Assembly (NCBI GenBank): GCA_026710945.1
Contig: JAPOQA010000059.1
Coordinates: 85,265-149,264 of the forward strand
Source: Chloroflexota bacterium
Lineage (GTDB): Bacteria > Chloroflexota > UBA11872 > VXOZ01
Length of the DNA: 64,000 bases
Direction of reading: 5' to 3'
In this document: positions 3,166 to 59,333 of the stretch, piece after piece
How positions within the stretch are numbered: position 1 is the stretch's first letter
How the letters are laid out: each line of letters starts with the position of its first letter
Translations under genes and position numbers: made by a program
Notes under the pieces: generated by a model
The model's database searches: none
The model's input: only the letters and a program-made list of their open reading frames with translations
Told to the model about the DNA's origin: nothing

Positions 3166-3580
3166 AGGACTCCCTTCCCTGGGAAGACCTGTGCGTATCT
3201 TCGACCGGAGGTGCAATAGATACACCGTCCCCTTGGGGGAGACCATTGGGTAACAAGAATCTGAGCGATATGTGTTTCTCCCCGGGGAGAGGGTTGGGGT
3301 GAGGGGTTCTTGCCAATCCGGTTTCCCTATCCCGTGGAACTTATGCGTATCAGAGCAGTACTGATGATGAATGAGTCTAATTGCGGAGATTCCCCCTCAC
3401 CCTCTCCGACTGGAGACCTTTGCACAACCCTTGCCGGGGCGGGAAAGTCCCCTCTCCCCAAGGAGAGGGAGTAGCTCGTGCGCCTCCGGCCGGGTTTACT
3501 TAAAGGTCTCCACTGGGAGAGGGAACATACTCGCTGCGGCTAGGTTTTCGCGAGAGTTTCCTCTGGGAGAGGGGACAATC
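3166..3580. repeat. Dispersed CCCTCACCC / CTCTCCC repeat cluster between infB and rbfA
   Basis: This 700-bp gap has no convincing gene. It holds several degenerate copies of a GC-rich element: a CTCCCC–GGGGAGAGGG hairpin joined to GGGGTGAGGGG (3279–3306), the same in inverse orientation from 3391, and partial copies near 3508 and 3558. Some carry an adjoining tract GGAGACCTTTGCACAAC (about 3414). The same tracts recur near 4330, 6529, 23921, 39789, 59101 and 60750, so this is a genome-wide repeat and not a local feature. Confidence 0.75.
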
Positions 3581-8506: not shown

Positions 8507-10453
8507 CTACTCCGGCTCTGTGCCGGGAATCTGCCCAGGGGTTTGAAAGCCGGGCATTCTCCCGCCGCCCGGTCGGCGGCGGCCAAACGGCGGCATAGGA
8601 CCACCGGACTCGGCTTCAGGCGCGGATGGCGGCTCCGGCTCGGTGCGGAACTGGATGCTGTGCAGCTTGGCGTAGAGGCCGCCCTGCGCCAGCAATTCCT
8701 CGTGCGTGCCGGACTCGGCGGCGCGGCCCTCCGCGAGCACCAGGATGCGATCGGCGGCGCGGACGGTAGAGAGGCGGTGCGCGATAACGAAACTTGTCCG
8801 CCCCTGGCGCAACGTGTTCAGCGCCTGCTGGATGAGCTCTTCAGACTGGGAATCGAGCGACGACGTGGCCTCATCCAGGATGATGATGCGCGGGTTCTTC
8901 AGGAAGACGCGGGCGATGGCCACGCGCTGCTTCTCACCGCCGGAGAGCCGGAAACCCCGCTCGCCGACCACGGTTTCGTACTTTTCGGGTAAGCCCTCGA
9001 TGAAGTCGTGAATTTGCGCCGCCTTGGCAGCCTCTACGACGTCAGCTTCCGTCGCTTCCGGGTTGGCGTAGAGCAGGTTCTCCCGCAGCGACGTATGGAA
9101 CAGGAACGGCTCCTGGGTCACCACGCCCACGTGCCGCATGAGCGACAAGTATTGCAGGTCGCGCAGGTCATAGTCGTCCAGCCGCACCTGACCGTTCACC
9201 GGATCGTAAAGCCGGGGGATGAGATACGTCAGCGTGGTCTTGCCGGCGCCGCTGGGGCCGACGAGGGCGATCATCTCGCCCGGTTCGGCCGTAAACGTAA
9301 TGCCTTGTAGCGCCCACGCCGCCTCGTCGTTGTAGCGGAACCAGACATCGTCAAAGGAAATACGCCCCTGTACTCTGGCGACCTCCCGCGCATCCGGCGT
9401 GTCGAAGATCTCCGGCTCCATGTCCAGGTAGCCGAAGATGCGGTCGAACAGCGCCATGGCGCCCTGCACGTCCACGTACACGTTTGCCAGTTGCGACGAC
9501 GGCCCGTAGAGATTCCGCAGAAACGCGACAAAGGCGACAATGGTGCCAAGGGTTAGTTCATCTTGCATCACCTGGCGGCCGCCGAACCAGTAGATCGCCG
9601 CGGGGCCGATGGAGGCGAACAGGCCCAGGAACATGAAGAACCAGCGGCCCACCATGGCCTGCTTGATGTTGAGGCGCAGCAGGTCCCGGCCGATGCCGCG
9701 AAAACGCGAGTCCGCGCGCTGTTCGCCGGAGAACGTGCGCATGAGCAGGTAGCCGCTGATATTCATCATCTCGTGGAGGAAGGCGCTGAGATCGGCTTGC
9801 TTCTCCTGGGTCTCGCGGGAGACCTGACGCCGGTAGCGCCCCACGCGCCGCGTCGGCAGCACAAATGCCGGTGTGACGATGAGGGCAATTATCGCTAATT
9901 GCCAGTTCATAAGAAAGAGCACGACGACCGTAAACAGCACCGTAAAAATGTTCGTGATGATTGAGATGATGGTGCCGGCAATAACGCTCTGCACGCCGGC
10001 GACGTCGTTGTTGATGCGGGAGATGATCTCGCCGCTGCGAGTCTTGGTGAAGAAGCGCAGCGACATGCGCTGCATGTGCCGGAAGAGCTGCTTGCGCAGG
10101 TCGTAGACGATGCGCTGGCCGACCAAGGCGTTTAGGTAGCTCTGCAGCACGCTGATCAGGCCGGAGAGGAACGGCAAGGCAACCATGCCGAAAACGAGCA
10201 GGTTGAGCAGGCCGAAGTCCTTATCCGGTAGGGCGGTGTCGATAACGCTGCGTATGAGGAGCGGCGGAATCAAGCCAAGGCCGGTGACGGCCAGCACGCA
10301 GATAAGAATGACGATTTCGTGGGGCCAGTACGGCAGCAGGTAGCCGAAGACGCGGCGCACGCCGGCAGCCGTGAGCGCCACCTTGGGCTGGTCTTCGTCT
10401 GATCGGTACGGGCGGTTCATGTGCCACCCGCCGCCATACATCATGCGCGCCAT
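8507..10453 (-). CDS. ABC multidrug/lipid exporter, fused membrane and ATPase half-transporter
   Basis: A 648-residue type IV (MsbA/LmrA-like) half-transporter. The N-terminal six-helix exporter domain spans about residues 25–340 and includes FFTKTRSGEIISRINNDV, the usual first intracellular coupling region. The ATPase follows, with Walker A GPSGAGKTT (about 400), signature LSGGEKQR (about 503), Walker B IIILDEATSSLD (about 525) and the H-loop IAHRLST. It should work as a homodimer, or with an unlinked partner, at the inner membrane; substrate is unknown. An odd C-terminal tail of about 35 residues is rich in Pro, Gly and Arg. The gene stands alone, with repeat-filled gaps on both sides. Confidence 0.9.
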   Translation of the reverse strand: MARMMYGGGWHMNRPYRSDEDQPKVALTAAGVRRVFGYLLPYWPHEIVILICVLAVTGLGLIPPLLIRSVIDTALPDKDFGLLNLLVFGMVALPFLSGLISVLQSYLNALVGQRIVYDLRKQLFRHMQRMSLRFFTKTRSGEIISRINNDVAGVQSVIAGTIISIITNIFTVLFTVVVLFLMNWQLAIIALIVTPAFVLPTRRVGRYRRQVSRETQEKQADLSAFLHEMMNISGYLLMRTFSGEQRADSRFRGIGRDLLRLNIKQAMVGRWFFMFLGLFASIGPAAIYWFGGRQVMQDELTLGTIVAFVAFLRNLYGPSSQLANVYVDVQGAMALFDRIFGYLDMEPEIFDTPDAREVARVQGRISFDDVWFRYNDEAAWALQGITFTAEPGEMIALVGPSGAGKTTLTYLIPRLYDPVNGQVRLDDYDLRDLQYLSLMRHVGVVTQEPFLFHTSLRENLLYANPEATEADVVEAAKAAQIHDFIEGLPEKYETVVGERGFRLSGGEKQRVAIARVFLKNPRIIILDEATSSLDSQSEELIQQALNTLRQGRTSFVIAHRLSTVRAADRILVLAEGRAAESGTHEELLAQGGLYAKLHSIQFRTEPEPPSAPEAESGGPMPPFGRRRPGGGRMPGFQTPGQIPGTEPE

Positions 10454-10545: not shown

Positions 10546-10657
10546 GTAGCGCAGGTTTGTAACCTGCGACGACAATCCCCATTCCTCCGGTAGCGCAGGT
10601 TTGTAACCTGCGACGACAATCCCCATTCCTCCGGGTAGCGCAGGTTTGTAACCTGCG
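10546..10657. repeat. Three tandem type-B REP units (GTAGCGCAGGTT hairpins), 44–45 bp period
   Basis: Units beginning GTAGCGCAGG start at 10546, 10590 and 10635. Each contains a perfect 7-bp stem GCAGGTT/AACCTGC around TGT, and the spacers GACGACAATCCCCATTCCTCC are nearly identical. They lie just upstream of the ABC exporter. GTAG followed by a hairpin is the layout of REP sequences handled by RAYT transposases. Confidence 0.8.
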
Positions 10658-11424: not shown

Positions 11425-11787
11425 TCAGAATATGTCGCTGATCTTCTTGCCGGAGTAGAAGACGTTAACGACGACGATCGCTGCCCAGACGAGGCCAACT
11501 CCCAGAATTCCCGCACCGAAGTCAAGCATGATCGCGGTCAACGGGATTGCGAAGACGAGCGAGCAAATAGGGACGGCGGGCGACACGCTCTTCGGTTTGA
11601 CGTCCTGCAAGCGTGCTTCCACGCGACGGTCGATCACGGTATCCAAACGCTCGATGAGCATGTCGGTCAGTTCCTCGTTGTATTCCGCGCCGAGTTCCTG
11701 CCGCGCCGAGAGGATAGCGTCCAGTTCCTCCCGGGTGCCATCCGCTTTTACGCGCTCATCTTTGTTGTGCCCTGCACTGCTGCTCAT
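11425..11787 (-). CDS. Small two-helix membrane protein, paralogue 1 of 3
   Basis: 120 residues from the ATG at 11787; the frame runs upstream to 11832 but this ATG begins the region shared with the paralogues. The conserved N-terminal module REELDAILSARQELG(A/T)EYNEEL is followed by D(M)LxERLDxVIDRRVEARL, a charged helical part. Two hydrophobic segments then follow (about 75–115), with a short YSGKK(I/L)(S/G)DIF end. Proteins with the same ARxELGxEYExxL motif and two C-terminal helices occur in Actinobacteria and Chloroflexota as unnamed membrane proteins. Function unknown; it is closest to the next gene upstream on this strand (paralogue 2), with a near-identical motif block and C-terminus. 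Confidence 0.75.
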   Translation of the reverse strand: MSSSAGHNKDERVKADGTREELDAILSARQELGAEYNEELTDMLIERLDTVIDRRVEARLQDVKPKSVSPAVPICSLVFAIPLTAIMLDFGAGILGVGLVWAAIVVVNVFYSGKKISDIF

Positions 11788-11916
11788 GCTCTCTGTCCCA
11801 TTTGTTCGCTGCCAAAGTGCTCGCCAAGGCACTCTCTTTGTCTAATTTTCCAACTGCCCAACTTACAGACGTGACACGGAAGTAGCTAGGGGAATGCTGC
11901 GTTTGCTCCGAACCCG

Positions 11917-12279
11917 CTAGAAGATATCGCCAAGCTTCTTACCCGAATACAGAACATTGACAATGATCAACGCGGCCCAGACGATGAGAACGCCCCTAAT
12001 GCCTAGCATAGCGGCCGCAATCGCGGTCAAGGGAATTGCAAGAGCTAAAGTCGTAATCGGCACGGCAGGCGAAAGAGAACTCTTAGGGGATTTATCCAGA
12101 CGCGCTTCCACGCGGCGGTCGATCACGTCGTCCAGCCGCTCCATCAGCATGTCCGCGAGTTCTTCGTTGTACTCGGTGCCGAGTTCTTGCCGCGCGGAAA
12201 GGATGGCGTCCAACTCCTCGCGGGTGCTCTTAGCCTCTTTGCGTTCTTTCTTGTCCTTGTCTTTCCCGCTCTTGCTCAT
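11917..12279 (-). CDS. Small two-helix membrane protein, paralogue 2 of 3
   Basis: 120 residues if started at the ATG at 12279, which follows GAGGGAAG on the minus strand; the ORF is open further upstream but that part has no support. A Lys/Glu-rich N-terminus (KSGKDKDKKERKEAK) precedes the shared motif block REELDAILSARQELG and DRRVEARLD, then two hydrophobic helices and YSGKKLGDIF. It is nearly superimposable on paralogue 1 and clearly a tandem duplicate. The charged helical half should lie in the cytoplasm and the hairpin in the membrane; no enzyme motif is present. Confidence 0.75.
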   Translation of the reverse strand: MSKSGKDKDKKERKEAKSTREELDAILSARQELGTEYNEELADMLMERLDDVIDRRVEARLDKSPKSSLSPAVPITTLALAIPLTAIAAAMLGIRGVLIVWAALIIVNVLYSGKKLGDIF

Positions 12280-12444
12280 GGTCTGCTTCCCTCTGGCCTG
12301 GACTAATCGTTTTCGTTTTGGCAGGCATCCCGCCAATTGCCAATCGCGGTAAGCCCTGAATTTCTGTCGGCGTGAACGAGTACTCGCTATATTAGTTGCC
12401 CTGCCGTCGTGCCGGCGCACCGATGTGTCCGGCAGTGTCAAGCC

Positions 12445-13053: not shown

Positions 13054-14061
13054 CTAGAGCTTTACAACGCTGCCAGTGCGGCTGGCCTCGTAGGCGGCCA
13101 GAATGATGCGCAGGTTCATCAGGCCATCCGCAGCGGTGGTCGGCACGGGGCCTTTGCCGTCCAGGGCATCGCAGAACTCTGTAAGTATGGAGGTAAACCC
13201 GTCGGCGCCTGATTGTAAAGGCTTGGGATACTCGCAGTGGTCGCCCTTCCAAAGCTCGATGGGGTGCTCCGCATTGCCCCTGAGCAGGATCGACCCCTCT
13301 GATCCCTGCACTTCGCGGGCCGGCATGCTTCGGTCCGCGCCCCAGCCGTTCTGGATGGAGGTGATGGCGCCGCTTTCGTGACGCAGTAGTGCCAGGGCGG
13401 TGTCTTCCACTGAGAAATCGCGGGCAAAGGTGCCCACCACGCCAAACACCTCTTTGACCTCGGACTGCAGCACGTACCGCGCCAGATAGATGCTGTGATA
13501 GCCGTTGTCGAGCAAGGCGCCGCCCCCGCCGCGACCGGCATCGGCCCGCCAGCTGGGGTCATACGCCGCTGTGCCCAGGTAGTGATAGTCGCCGAAACCC
13601 TCGTACCGCACCAGGTAGGGCGTGCCGATGGCGCCTGCGTGCACCAACTCCACGACGCGGGCGGGTACACTCTGGCGCGAATAGTTGTGGATGAGCGAGA
13701 AGACGATGCCGGCCTCTTCCACGGCGGCGATCATCTCCAGGGCCTCGTCCTCGCGGGCGGCGATGGGCTTCTCCAACAGGATGTTGTGTCCCGCCTCAGC
13801 CGCGGCCAGCGTGGCCGGGTGGTGCAGGTGGTGGGGCAGGCAAATGTCCACGAAATCCAGATCGTCACGGCCGAGTAATTCATGATAGTCGTCGTAGCGC
13901 GCTTCGGCTGGAATTTGGAATTGCTCGCCCAGCAGGTCGCGCCGCTCCACGGCCGGGTCCGCCACCGCGACGACGCTGAGACGGTCCGCCAGTGCTGTAT
14001 AGGCGCTTTGGTGCCCTCTGGCGGCAATTTGGCCGCAGCCGATGATGCCAACACGTTTCAT
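13054..14061 (-). CDS. Gfo/Idh/MocA family NAD(P)-dependent oxidoreductase
   Basis: 335 residues. The N-terminal Rossmann fold starts GIIGCGQIA (GxGxxA type) and contains DICLPHHLH and LLEKPIA; the Lys of EKP is the conserved family lysine. The C-terminal half is the alpha/beta dimer and substrate domain, with GGGGALLDNGYH supplying the usual His/Asp region. Members oxidise sugars, inositols or amino-sugar derivatives. A TIM-barrel sugar isomerase-like gene is encoded 1.5 kb away on the same strand, separated only by the REP/RAYT island, so both may serve the same sugar or inositol route. Substrate cannot be assigned. Confidence 0.88.
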   Translation of the reverse strand: MKRVGIIGCGQIAARGHQSAYTALADRLSVVAVADPAVERRDLLGEQFQIPAEARYDDYHELLGRDDLDFVDICLPHHLHHPATLAAAEAGHNILLEKPIAAREDEALEMIAAVEEAGIVFSLIHNYSRQSVPARVVELVHAGAIGTPYLVRYEGFGDYHYLGTAAYDPSWRADAGRGGGGALLDNGYHSIYLARYVLQSEVKEVFGVVGTFARDFSVEDTALALLRHESGAITSIQNGWGADRSMPAREVQGSEGSILLRGNAEHPIELWKGDHCEYPKPLQSGADGFTSILTEFCDALDGKGPVPTTAADGLMNLRIILAAYEASRTGSVVKL

Positions 14062-14207
14062 AATGCAGGTTCCTTCATGGTGTCATTGGGTTTGCCGACC
14101 ACAACACAGATTGTGATCGCGCCAGTAAGACTCTGCAAACACGGCCGCCACACTCACCGAATTCATCTATCTGTCGGCGACTCTTGAATCGGTGACGTCC
14201 ATCTTCA

Positions 14208-14350
14208 GTAGCGCGGGGGCTTGTCCCCCGCCTCTTCGCACCAACTGGGTCAGGTTCTGAAGCTGGTTTTCGATAAAAGCCACACATTCTTCGACAGCGT
14301 CAACGCGAGGTGTCGTCCGCATCTTCGTAGCGCGGGGGCTTGTCCCCCGC
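14208..14350. repeat. REP-bounded unit, copy 1 (type-A REP – 95 bp – type-A REP)
   Basis: Two type-A REPs (GTAG plus hairpin GCGGGGG/CCCCCGC around CTTGT) at 14208–14231 and 14327–14350 enclose 95 bp. The same unit recurs at 14480–14622 with 8 differences in the 95-bp core. On the minus strand the core can be read from an ATG as a short amphipathic peptide (VDAVEECVAFIENQLQNL), with the REPs adding RRGTSPRAT and RRGGGQAPAL at the ends. Confidence 0.8.
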
Positions 14351-14479
14351 CTCTTCGCCAGGGAGACTACACTCGCGAGAATGGATGCGGCATCTAGACA
14401 GGTGACGCGGTTGTCGGGCAATCAGCAGTCCTTTCACCGCTCCCTTTTGCAGTGGGTCATCGAACGCCTTCTCTCTTCC

Positions 14480-14622
14480 GTAGCGCGGGGGCTTGTCCCC
14501 CGCCTCTTCGCACCAACTGGATCAGGTTTTGAAGCTGGTTTTCGACTAAAGCCACACATTCTTCGACGGCCTCAATGCGAGGTGTCGTCTGCATCTTCGT
14601 AGCGCGGGGGCTTGTCCCCCGC
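14480..14622. repeat. REP-bounded unit, copy 2
   Basis: REPs at 14480–14503 and 14599–14622 with a 119-bp spacing identical to copy 1. The core reads IEAVEECVALVENQLQNL on the minus strand. Six of the eight base differences from copy 1 change a residue, mostly conservatively, so selection on a peptide is possible but not shown. The RAYT gene starts its 3' end 22 bp further on. Confidence 0.8.
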
Positions 14623-14644
14623 CTCTTCGTGCGAACAAGAGGCT

Positions 14645-15142
14645 TCAGAGCCATCCGCTCAAATCGTATACCAGCGAGCCGGAGAATTCATAGTCTCGCC
14701 ACTCGGCCGCGAGGCCCTTGCGCACTGGATTATGGAGCACGTACCTTACTACCTCGTCCAGGTTCTCTTCCTCGCGCACGAACCGGTCCCAGAAACTTAC
14801 CTGCCAGATTCGACCGGTCACACCGAGTTTCCAAACTTGCCGCTGTGCAAGGTTCTTGAACTGACCAACAAAGGCTATAATATCGCAGTTTTGAGAAGGT
14901 CCGAGGACGAGGTGCGCATGATCCGGCATCAGGCAGTACACGTAGACTGGCACTCCGGTCTTGTGCGCATGCCTGTGAAGCACGTCGCACGCAGGTCCCG
15001 CGATCTTTGGATCTGCGAAGATTGAGTGTCGCTCTCGTGCGCCAATAGTCACGGAGCAGATCGTGCCAGGTTGGGCATAGAGCTATCGCTCCAGGCGAAT
15101 ACGTTTGTGAAAGCGATTATTGGAGCGAGTATCGGAAACCAT
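14645..15142 (-). pseudogene. REP-associated tyrosine transposase (RAYT, IS200-like), interrupted by an amber codon
   Basis: The HUH motif is in YCLMPDHAHLVL and the catalytic Tyr probably in VVRYVLHNPVRKG; SFWDRF and FKNLAQR are also typical of this RAYT branch. Translating upstream of the GTG at 15052 gives RIRLER-stop-LYAQPGT, which continues the family N-terminus (RIRLxxxLYAQPG) back to an ATG at 15142. A TAG at 15085–15083 therefore interrupts the gene in frame. Either it is a fresh pseudogene or a shorter form starts at GTG 15052, which would lack the first strand. Type-A REPs flank it in opposite orientations (14599–14622 and 15164–15187), the arrangement expected of a RAYT and the REPs it processes. 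Confidence 0.85.
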
Positions 15143-15163
15143 GTTCCTTACTACCACGGGTGT

Positions 15164-15497
15164 GCGGGGGACAAGCCCCCGCGCTGCGGCGAGACCGCAT
15201 TCAATCACGACAAGGCCTTGGGAGGTCTTACCTTTTCTCAGACAAGAAGCGGGGGACGAGCCCCCGCGCTACGGCTGGACCGCCTCAAATCTTGACAAGG
15301 CTTCGGGAGGTCTTGCCTTACTTCAGGCAAACAGCGGGGGACAAGCCCCCGCGCTACTCTAGATATCTCGTTCATGATGGGGCTAGTTGGGCACCCGGGC
15401 CGTAATGAAGCAGAGATCGAGAGGCAGAATTCCGCGCCTCTCAAGTATACTCTCACTCTACTGCGGGCAAAGAGCGGGGGACAAGCCCCCGCGCTAC
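15164..15497. repeat. Four inverted type-A REPs downstream of the RAYT 5' end
   Basis: Minus-orientation REPs at 15164–15187 (GTAG changed to GCAG), 15249–15272, 15334–15357 and 15474–15497. The first three are evenly spaced by 85 bp and separated by related sequence, indicating tandem amplification of REP plus spacer. They face the four plus-orientation copies on the other side of the RAYT. No gene is supported in this stretch. Confidence 0.82.
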
Positions 15498-15547: not shown

Positions 15548-16396
15548 CTACCCCACCGGCAGGTTCAACTCCTGTTCGACGAAGGCTTTATTCGTCGCGG
15601 CGCTGTCCTTGGGTGTGGAGCGAGAGCGGTCGAGCTCGATCATGAGCCAGCCGGCGTAACCGCTCTCCTGAAGCTCCTGGACGCAATCTTTCACGTGCAC
15701 CACGCCGGTGCCGAGTTCCACGAAGTCGGGCAAGATAGCGGTTGCCGCATCGGCGCCCTGGGCCGGCTCGGTCTGCGAATCGGCAAATGCCTGTGGATCC
15801 CAATCCTTCAGGTGCACGTACTTCACGCGGTCGGCATAGGCCCGCACTACTGACACCTCATCGCCGCCGCCTTTGCGCAGGTGCGCGGTGTCCGGGCAGA
15901 GGAAGACGTAGCGCGGGTCGGTGTAGTCCATCATGATGTCGATCTCTTCCTCCGTTTCCACTGTGGTGGCGTAGTGCGGGTGGTAGCAGGCCAGCACGCC
16001 GTAGTCCAGGCAGCGGCGGCCGATCTCGTCCATGCAGTGGGCCTGGTTGAGCAGCTCTTCGTCGGATGGGCCGCCCGGCGCGCGCGAACCGCCGCCCAAG
16101 ACCAGCCGGTCAGCCCCATGAGCCGCCAGGAATTTGGCAAAGCCCACGTTGCGGGCAACCATTTCGTCCATGCGGTGGGATTCATTCATAGGGCCGCCGC
16201 CATAGACGGTGACAAGCTCTAGACCCCGTTGCGCTATGAGGTCTTGAAACTCGCTGACCCTACTGCCGTACGTGTCCACCACCGCCGCGAAGGTCTCAAA
16301 GCCCTTGAAACCCAGCCCGGCAATCTCGTCCAACGCCAGTTCGAAGCCATCCATGCCCCAAGTGATTGTATGGTATCCGACCCGAATGTCTGCCAT
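15548..16396 (-). CDS. Sugar phosphate isomerase/epimerase family TIM-barrel protein (IolE/AP endonuclease 2 fold)
   Basis: 282 residues of the xylose-isomerase-like TIM barrel family, which includes inosose dehydratase, hydroxypyruvate isomerase and 3-epimerases. Metal-site elements are visible: E in GFETFAAV, H in ACYHPHYATTVE, D and H in CPDTAHLRKGG, and the ending YVHLKDWDP with a late E in MIELDRS. PDTAHL and HLKDW are characteristic of IolE-like members. With the nearby Gfo/Idh gene it suggests inositol or uncommon-sugar metabolism. The ATG at 16396 follows AGGGAG on the minus strand. The exact reaction is not predictable from sequence. Confidence 0.85.
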   Translation of the reverse strand: MADIRVGYHTITWGMDGFELALDEIAGLGFKGFETFAAVVDTYGSRVSEFQDLIAQRGLELVTVYGGGPMNESHRMDEMVARNVGFAKFLAAHGADRLVLGGGSRAPGGPSDEELLNQAHCMDEIGRRCLDYGVLACYHPHYATTVETEEEIDIMMDYTDPRYVFLCPDTAHLRKGGGDEVSVVRAYADRVKYVHLKDWDPQAFADSQTEPAQGADAATAILPDFVELGTGVVHVKDCVQELQESGYAGWLMIELDRSRSTPKDSAATNKAFVEQELNLPVG

Positions 16397-32125: not shown

Positions 32126-32256
32126 GTAGCGCAGGTTTGTAACCTGCGGCCAACGGCGTGGCAGGGCAAGTTTTGCGCTTGCCCTCTATTGAGAGACAAC
32201 CGCTGGGTCTTGCGCTTCACTTTACTTTGGAGGCGGGGGACAAGCCCCCGCGCTAC
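32126..32256. repeat. Type-B and type-A REPs in opposite orientation upstream of rnc
   Basis: Type-B REP at 32126–32148 (plus) and type-A REP at 32233–32256 (minus) lie in the 336-bp gap between the SDR gene and rnc. A mixed-family inverted pair shows that both families use the same kind of site. Nothing else is seen in the gap. Confidence 0.8.
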
Positions 32257-54686: not shown

Positions 54687-54814
54687 GCGGGGGACAAGCC
54701 CCCGCGCTACTCCCCTGGGAGCCGCCAGTTCCGTCATTCCGGCGAAAGCCGGAATCCATCTTTTCTTCGTTCCATACGCCCTCAACCCACTGCGGGGGAC
54801 AAGCCCCGCGCTAC
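54687..54814. repeat. Two type-A REPs and a CCGGAATGAC repeat upstream of ubiD
   Basis: Minus-orientation type-A REPs at 54687–54710 and 54792–54814 (the latter one C short in the stem) enclose a copy of the GTCATTCCGGCGAAAGCCGG inverted repeat at 54733–54760. That last element recurs at 62514, 62610 and 62716. Confidence 0.8.
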
Positions 54815-54864: not shown

Positions 54865-54999
54865 CGCAGGTTACAAACCTACGCTACCGGACCGCAGGTT
54901 ACAGACCTACGCTGCCGGGCCACAGGTTGCGAACCTACGCTACTGGGCCGCAGGTTGCGGACCTACGCTGCCGGGCCGCAGGTTTCAAACCTGCGCTAC
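54865..54999. repeat. Five type-B REPs in a strict 28-bp tandem array
   Basis: Units start at 54865, 54893, 54921, 54949 and 54977: a 23-nt REP (minus orientation, ending GCTAC or GCTGC) plus a 5-nt spacer, CGGxC or similar. Units 1–4 carry stem mutations (AACCTAC instead of AACCTGC); unit 5, next to the aldolase gene, has the intact stem. This graded decay suggests serial copying from the gene-proximal unit. The last REP includes the stop codon of the aldolase gene. Confidence 0.85.
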
Positions 55000-59100: not shown

Positions 59101-59333
59101 ATCCCCTCACCCTAACCCTCTCCCCCAGGAGAGGGAACCGGAGCCGCTCCATGTTTGCTCGGTTCCGTGCTCTGCACTCTCTCCTGGGCGAGAGGGAACC
59201 GGAGCCGCTCCATGTTTGCTCGGTTCCGTACTCTGCACCCTCTCCCTGGGGGAGAGGGAACCGGAGCAGCTCAATGTTTGCTCGGTTCCGCGCTCTGCAC
59301 CCTCTCCCTGGGGGAGAGGGCCGGGGTGAGGGC
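59101..59333. repeat. Dispersed CTCTCCC repeat amplified in three 61–62-bp tandem units
   Basis: GAGAGGGAACCGGAGC units begin at 59129, 59190 and 59252, each ending GTTCCG(T/C)(G/A/C)CTCTGCAC, followed by the closing arm GGGGGAGAGGGCCGGGGTGAGG near 59312. The unit GGAACCG…CGGTTCC is itself an inverted repeat. Reading frames through it are by-products. The rest of 58997–59831 holds a partial type-A REP near 59432 and the repeat at 59639. Confidence 0.78.

Follow-up and report, generated by a model that had tools for sequence, protein, structure and literature searches.

A RAYT gene probably silenced recently by a single base change within an inverted set of REPs in a Chloroflexota genome

In a 64,000-nucleotide stretch of a Chloroflexota genome (the window, taken at its full length) we identified a REPtron, i.e. 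a gene of a REP-associated tyrosine transposase (RAYT) placed between oppositely oriented GTAG-tagged palindromes with further copies elsewhere in the genome. This RAYT, single-copy and vertically inherited, has very probably been inactivated recently by one base change, which turned a Lys or Glu codon (codon 20) into TAG; a late origin of the stop on the branch leading to the window, a timing that we infer, is the best account. Judging from the family and from the co-occurrence of REPs and RAYTs, the intact enzyme would be a single-strand endonuclease of the HUH type with one catalytic tyrosine; it would recognise and cut the GTAG-tagged hairpin of the REP and disperse class-A REPs. After the stop, translation would give a 19-residue peptide only, and the REPs would stay as non-replicating residents. 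RAYT loss is recurrent in this genus: two sister species carry independently broken copies, and a third appears to lack the gene.

The RAYT gene and its premature stop codon

The gene, its interrupted frame and its neighbours are listed below (G001, G003 and G004 are genomes of sister species):
13054..14061, minus strand: Gfo/Idh/MocA-type oxidoreductase, conserved neighbour, resembling inositol 2-dehydrogenase below the cut-off
14645..15142, minus strand: RAYT (TnpA_REP) gene, probably a pseudogene, from ATG at 15142 to TGA at 14645, 165 codons plus stop, with one internal TAG
14645..15052, minus strand: nominal GTG-started ORF (135 aa), whose GTG falls within predicted beta1 (residues 29-35), at a conserved Val codon
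15083..15085, minus strand: premature TAG, codon 20 of the RAYT; AAG in G003, AAA in G004 and GAA in G001
15548..16396, minus strand: sugar isomerase/dehydratase-type protein, conserved neighbour, resembling IolE below the cut-off

The gene is a RAYT with a predicted TnpA_REP fold. It matches Pfam Y1_Tnp with 36.6 bits (cut-off 23), and its GTG-started part scores 83.7 bits against the NCBIfam model NF047646 (REP-associated tyrosine transposase; cut-off 80), a value that rises to 88.7 bits when the frame is read through the TAG. The catalytic HUH motif (H75, H77) and the single tyrosine (Y134), which are invariant in the alignment, are kept. The structure of the read-through protein was predicted with a pLDDT of 89, and the solved structure closest to this model is PDB 4er8 (E 8.7e-9, TM 0.65), in which E. 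coli TnpA_REP is bound to a REP hairpin. The E. coli system is similar in its HUH motif and single tyrosine, and in the GTAG-tagged hairpins inverted around the gene; unlike E. coli TnpA_REP, to which its sequence is only 20% identical, the window RAYT is interrupted, its TAG at codon 20 depriving it of the complete reading frame of the family. A search with PADLOC for an anti-phage role gave no match.

The original prediction had placed family sequence on either side of a single TAG upstream of the GTG, and this was borne out. From ATG 15142 the frame reads MVSDTRSNNRFHKRIRLER, then the TAG of codon 20, then LYAQPGTICSVTIG, with GTG 15052 as codon 31. R16, L17 and Y22, which are invariant among 11 homologues drawn from Chloroflexota and several further phyla, all lie upstream of this GTG and flank the TAG, and a family N-terminus matching the window sequence upstream of 15052 is therefore present. 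Alignment to relatives had been proposed as a check on the TAG; the column is occupied by the Lys and Glu codons given above in the three closest orthologues.

Three fates had been offered for the enzyme: newly dead, read through, or shortened. The first is favoured by our results, and the sense codon in orthologues, the invariant residues, beta1 and the lack of a tRNA with anticodon CTA speak against the other two. A working enzyme of 135 residues, started at GTG 15052 and retaining the HUH and Tyr motifs, has in its favour that the ORF is open, keeps Y134 and passes the NF047646 cut-off. Such a start, however, would drop R16, L17 and Y22 and would remove the first residues of predicted beta1, inside which residue 31 falls; contacts to the GTAG are made by beta1-region residues in E. 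coli TnpA_REP (PMC8266576), which also counts against a shortened enzyme. Moreover, all three orthologues have an ordinary Val codon at this position and an upstream ATG or GTG start, and no Shine-Dalgarno-like stretch was seen by inspection before GTG 15052. On the orthologue and family alignments GTG 15052 was rejected as the true start and, since it lies in beta1 with family residues upstream of it, a shortened enzyme is improbable.

The orthologous locus in sister species

To judge from isolate names, the genus may live with marine invertebrates. In three of its genomes (G001, G003 and G004) the RAYT occupies the orthologous site between the same two neighbours. The G004 gene is the one copy that is open throughout; in G001 a TGG codon has become a TGA stop, and the G003 gene carries a 1-bp deletion. 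The oxidoreductase and isomerase genes are open and free of stops in G001-G004. If the lesions were spread randomly over the RAYT and its neighbours in proportion to length, the chance of all three falling in the RAYT would be about 0.009, in a test framed after the lesions were known. No close RAYT was found in G002, where the two neighbour genes are split between different contigs and the isomerase gene still has two diverged minus-strand REPs next to it; this looks like loss of the RAYT by rearrangement, less probably like an assembly gap. A further genome (G005), which is 69% complete, was left out of the judgement of RAYT presence or absence.

All the genomes used for comparison look like metagenome assemblies, so that the TAG, or the deletion in G003, could stem from a consensus error or represent a minor variant among strains. 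That the population behind the window is mostly intact, its TAG being such an error or variant, is nevertheless highly improbable. The source is apparently a genome assembled from a metagenome, in 70 contigs, but the lesions concentrate in the RAYT in three of the four orthologues, with none in the flanking genes, and the TAG sits in unique coding sequence although the REP flanks are complex.

Across all pairs of RAYT orthologues dN/dS ranges from 0.10 to 0.20, which indicates a long period of purifying selection on the gene. Parsimony assigns 17 nonsynonymous and 16 synonymous changes to the window branch, versus 5 and 13 to the G003 branch. This contrast between the branches, in which the rate difference is small and weak on its own, is suggestive of recent relaxation on the window branch; six of its 17 nonsynonymous changes fall in codons 145-149.

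Decoding of the TAG at some rate, giving full-length RAYT at a low and possibly regulated level, would be consistent with a frame that is intact but for one stop, and with a nonsynonymous excess on the window branch that is still well below neutral. However, typing of the 50 tRNA genes that were located gave none with anticodon CTA, and readthrough is therefore unsupported by any UAG-reading tRNA; the TAG is present in one species only, and the different, unrelated lesions of the sister species point to decay rather than to a conserved recoding site. Readthrough is extremely unlikely, and recent inactivation is the reading that we retain.

It is conceivable, though doubtful, that RAYT loss is selectively favoured in the genus, given its repeated independent silencing while the REP population is kept. 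Were this so, REPs would be useful (or harmless) once the enzyme has become a burden, which would argue against RAYTs as stably domesticated genes.

In the window, the tracts 9500-10300, 11600-12400 and 14063-14245 are mostly 94-99% identical to G001, versus a background of approximately 80-85%. Judged by these identities, they are probably the product of recombination between species. One of them stops shortly beyond the first REP of the RAYT locus.

Number, arrangement and activity of class-A REPs

The class A REP is a GTAG-tagged unit of 24 nt with the perfect palindrome GCGGGGG-CTTGT-CCCCCGC. As predicted, the RAYT gene stands between four REPs in plus and four in minus orientation:
14208..14231, plus strand: class A REP, perfect
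14327..14350, plus strand: class A REP, perfect
14480..14503, plus strand: class A REP, perfect
14599..14622, plus strand: class A REP, perfect; corresponds to the one REP on the left side of the orthologous loci
15164..15187, minus strand: class A REP, 1 mismatch (GCAG tag)
15249..15272, minus strand: class A REP, 1 mismatch
15334..15357, minus strand: class A REP, perfect
15474..15497, minus strand: class A REP, perfect
14202..14629, no strand assigned: 156-nt unit with two REPs, in two copies (14202-14357 and 14474-14629), 94% identical and 272 nt apart
15164..15357, no strand assigned: tandem array of an 85-nt unit, one REP per unit

Six of the eight are perfect 24-mers of GTAGCGCGGGGGCTTGTCCCCCGC, the other two differing by one mismatch; no class-A REP occurred in a mononucleotide-shuffled window. 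At the RAYT locus itself REPs are shared with the sister species, which have one plus and two minus. The arrangement of four plus four in the window is best explained, from the repeat structure, by local tandem duplication of an ancestral set of one plus two, rather than by eight insertions.

The REPtron reading of the original prediction is supported genome-wide. In the window genome (G000; 3.5 Mb, 70 contigs) we found 226 class-A copies with at most 2 mismatches, 160 of them perfect, and none with a reversed control; a 19-nt class-A core gave 241 matches versus 0 for a backwards control. Corresponding counts of class-A REPs are 192 in G004, 100 in G001, 81 in G003, and 68 in each of G002 and G005, while the 95 other genomes of the 101 searched contain 0-15 each. 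The abundance of class-A REPs is tied to the presence of the cognate RAYT lineage, and they are abundant in this genus only. In two genomes outside the genus that have related RAYTs (G091 and G052), similar palindromes are inverted around the gene.

The window had been credited with about 30 REPs, from which recent activity was deduced. This figure holds if two classes are pooled, but not for a single class: there are 16 class A (at most 4 mismatches) and 12 class B REPs. The deduction from number is weak, since it pools the classes and counts a four-plus-four set that goes back to local duplication. Recency itself has some independent support, both from sites that are not shared away from the RAYT and from the 160 perfect copies among 226. 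On the basis of the few sites compared, the class-A REPs at window positions 32233, 34707, 34788 and 39915 lack a same-strand counterpart in G003, and the window in turn lacks REPs that G003 and G004 have at other places.

Pseudomonas REP doublets are mostly inverted (REPINs; Bertels and Rainey 2011, PMC3116915). The class-A REPs resemble the REPINs of P. fluorescens (PMC3116915) in being RAYT-associated, dispersed GTAG repeats and, unlike them, occur as singlets or same-strand arrays, with no inverted doublets. Among the 100 perfect cores listed, all 32 neighbouring pairs at a distance of up to 400 bp are same-strand and none is inverted. Forty copies without a second exact copy nearby have flanks that are unrelated beyond approximately 28 nt; the class-A partners of these isolated copies are few, and all are same-strand except one weak partner with 5 mismatches. 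A REPIN (inverted-doublet) structure was accordingly rejected.

Related systems, a second REP class and other palindromes

The decay of a RAYT with REPs left over is a process already described in Proteobacteria, of which the present locus is a well-documented further case. In REPtrons of Pseudomonas and Stenotrophomonas, RAYTs have acquired nonsense or frameshift mutations or have been lost, while REPs survive (Nunvar et al. 2013, PMC3686654). As in those systems, a broken or lost RAYT is accompanied here by numerous cognate REPs, and the pattern agrees with the authors' model, in which decay follows RAYT loss. Unlike the Pseudomonas and Stenotrophomonas cases, ours concerns a Chloroflexota genus, three species of which carry different point lesions that break one orthologous RAYT. 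GTAG repeats have already been reported in Chloroflexi (PMC3733652). In comparison with E. coli TnpA_REP/RAYT (groups 2 and 3 in PMC8266576), the REP of the window differs in being a perfect palindrome, as in group 3.

One orthologous locus in one genus is found intact, three times independently broken and once apparently lost, each time beside a countable REP population. This natural experiment allows the rate of REP decay to be measured once the enzyme is gone, a rate that bears on whether RAYTs are host-domesticated or slow parasites.

A second, likewise GTAG-tagged REP (GTAGCGCAGGTTTGTAACCTGCG, class B) is present in 116 copies genome-wide. In the window, class B is situated at:
10546-10657, 25118, 25309, 32126, 39704, 54865-54999 and 62485: class B REPs

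The search for intact RAYT paralogues that had been suggested yielded RAYT-B, an intact gene on contig C21 (L003:1255-1821) between class-B REPs in inverted orientation, but no close paralogue of the window RAYT. RAYT-B shows a similar pattern to the window RAYT: it is intact in G000 and G001 and was not found in the other four genomes of the genus, although all six still contain class-B REPs. Trans-mobilisation by a close paralogue was rejected: the other Y1-type genes above the Pfam cut-off (on C21, C27 and C10) are distant and are flanked by other palindromes. A hypothetical cross-action of RAYT-B on class-A REPs is possible.

The Y1-type transposase genes on C27 (L002) and C10 (L004) of the window genome have their own palindromes on both sides, which suggests that the genome may have as many as four REPtron-like loci. 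The homologue in G052 (L108, 1878-2463) is also split over two frames, with GTAGCGCGGGGCCTTGCGCCCCGC on either side, once in plus and once in minus orientation; it is perhaps another broken RAYT in the phylum.

The window also contains other palindromes. CCTCTCC-N4/5-GGAGAGG, which has no GTAG tag, occurs at 3451, 6754, 23936, 39806, 59117, 59239 and 59301, partly within a 62-nt tandem array (59128-59320), and TTCCGGC...GCCGGAA is present in three copies with common flanks, at 54737, 62613 and 62719.
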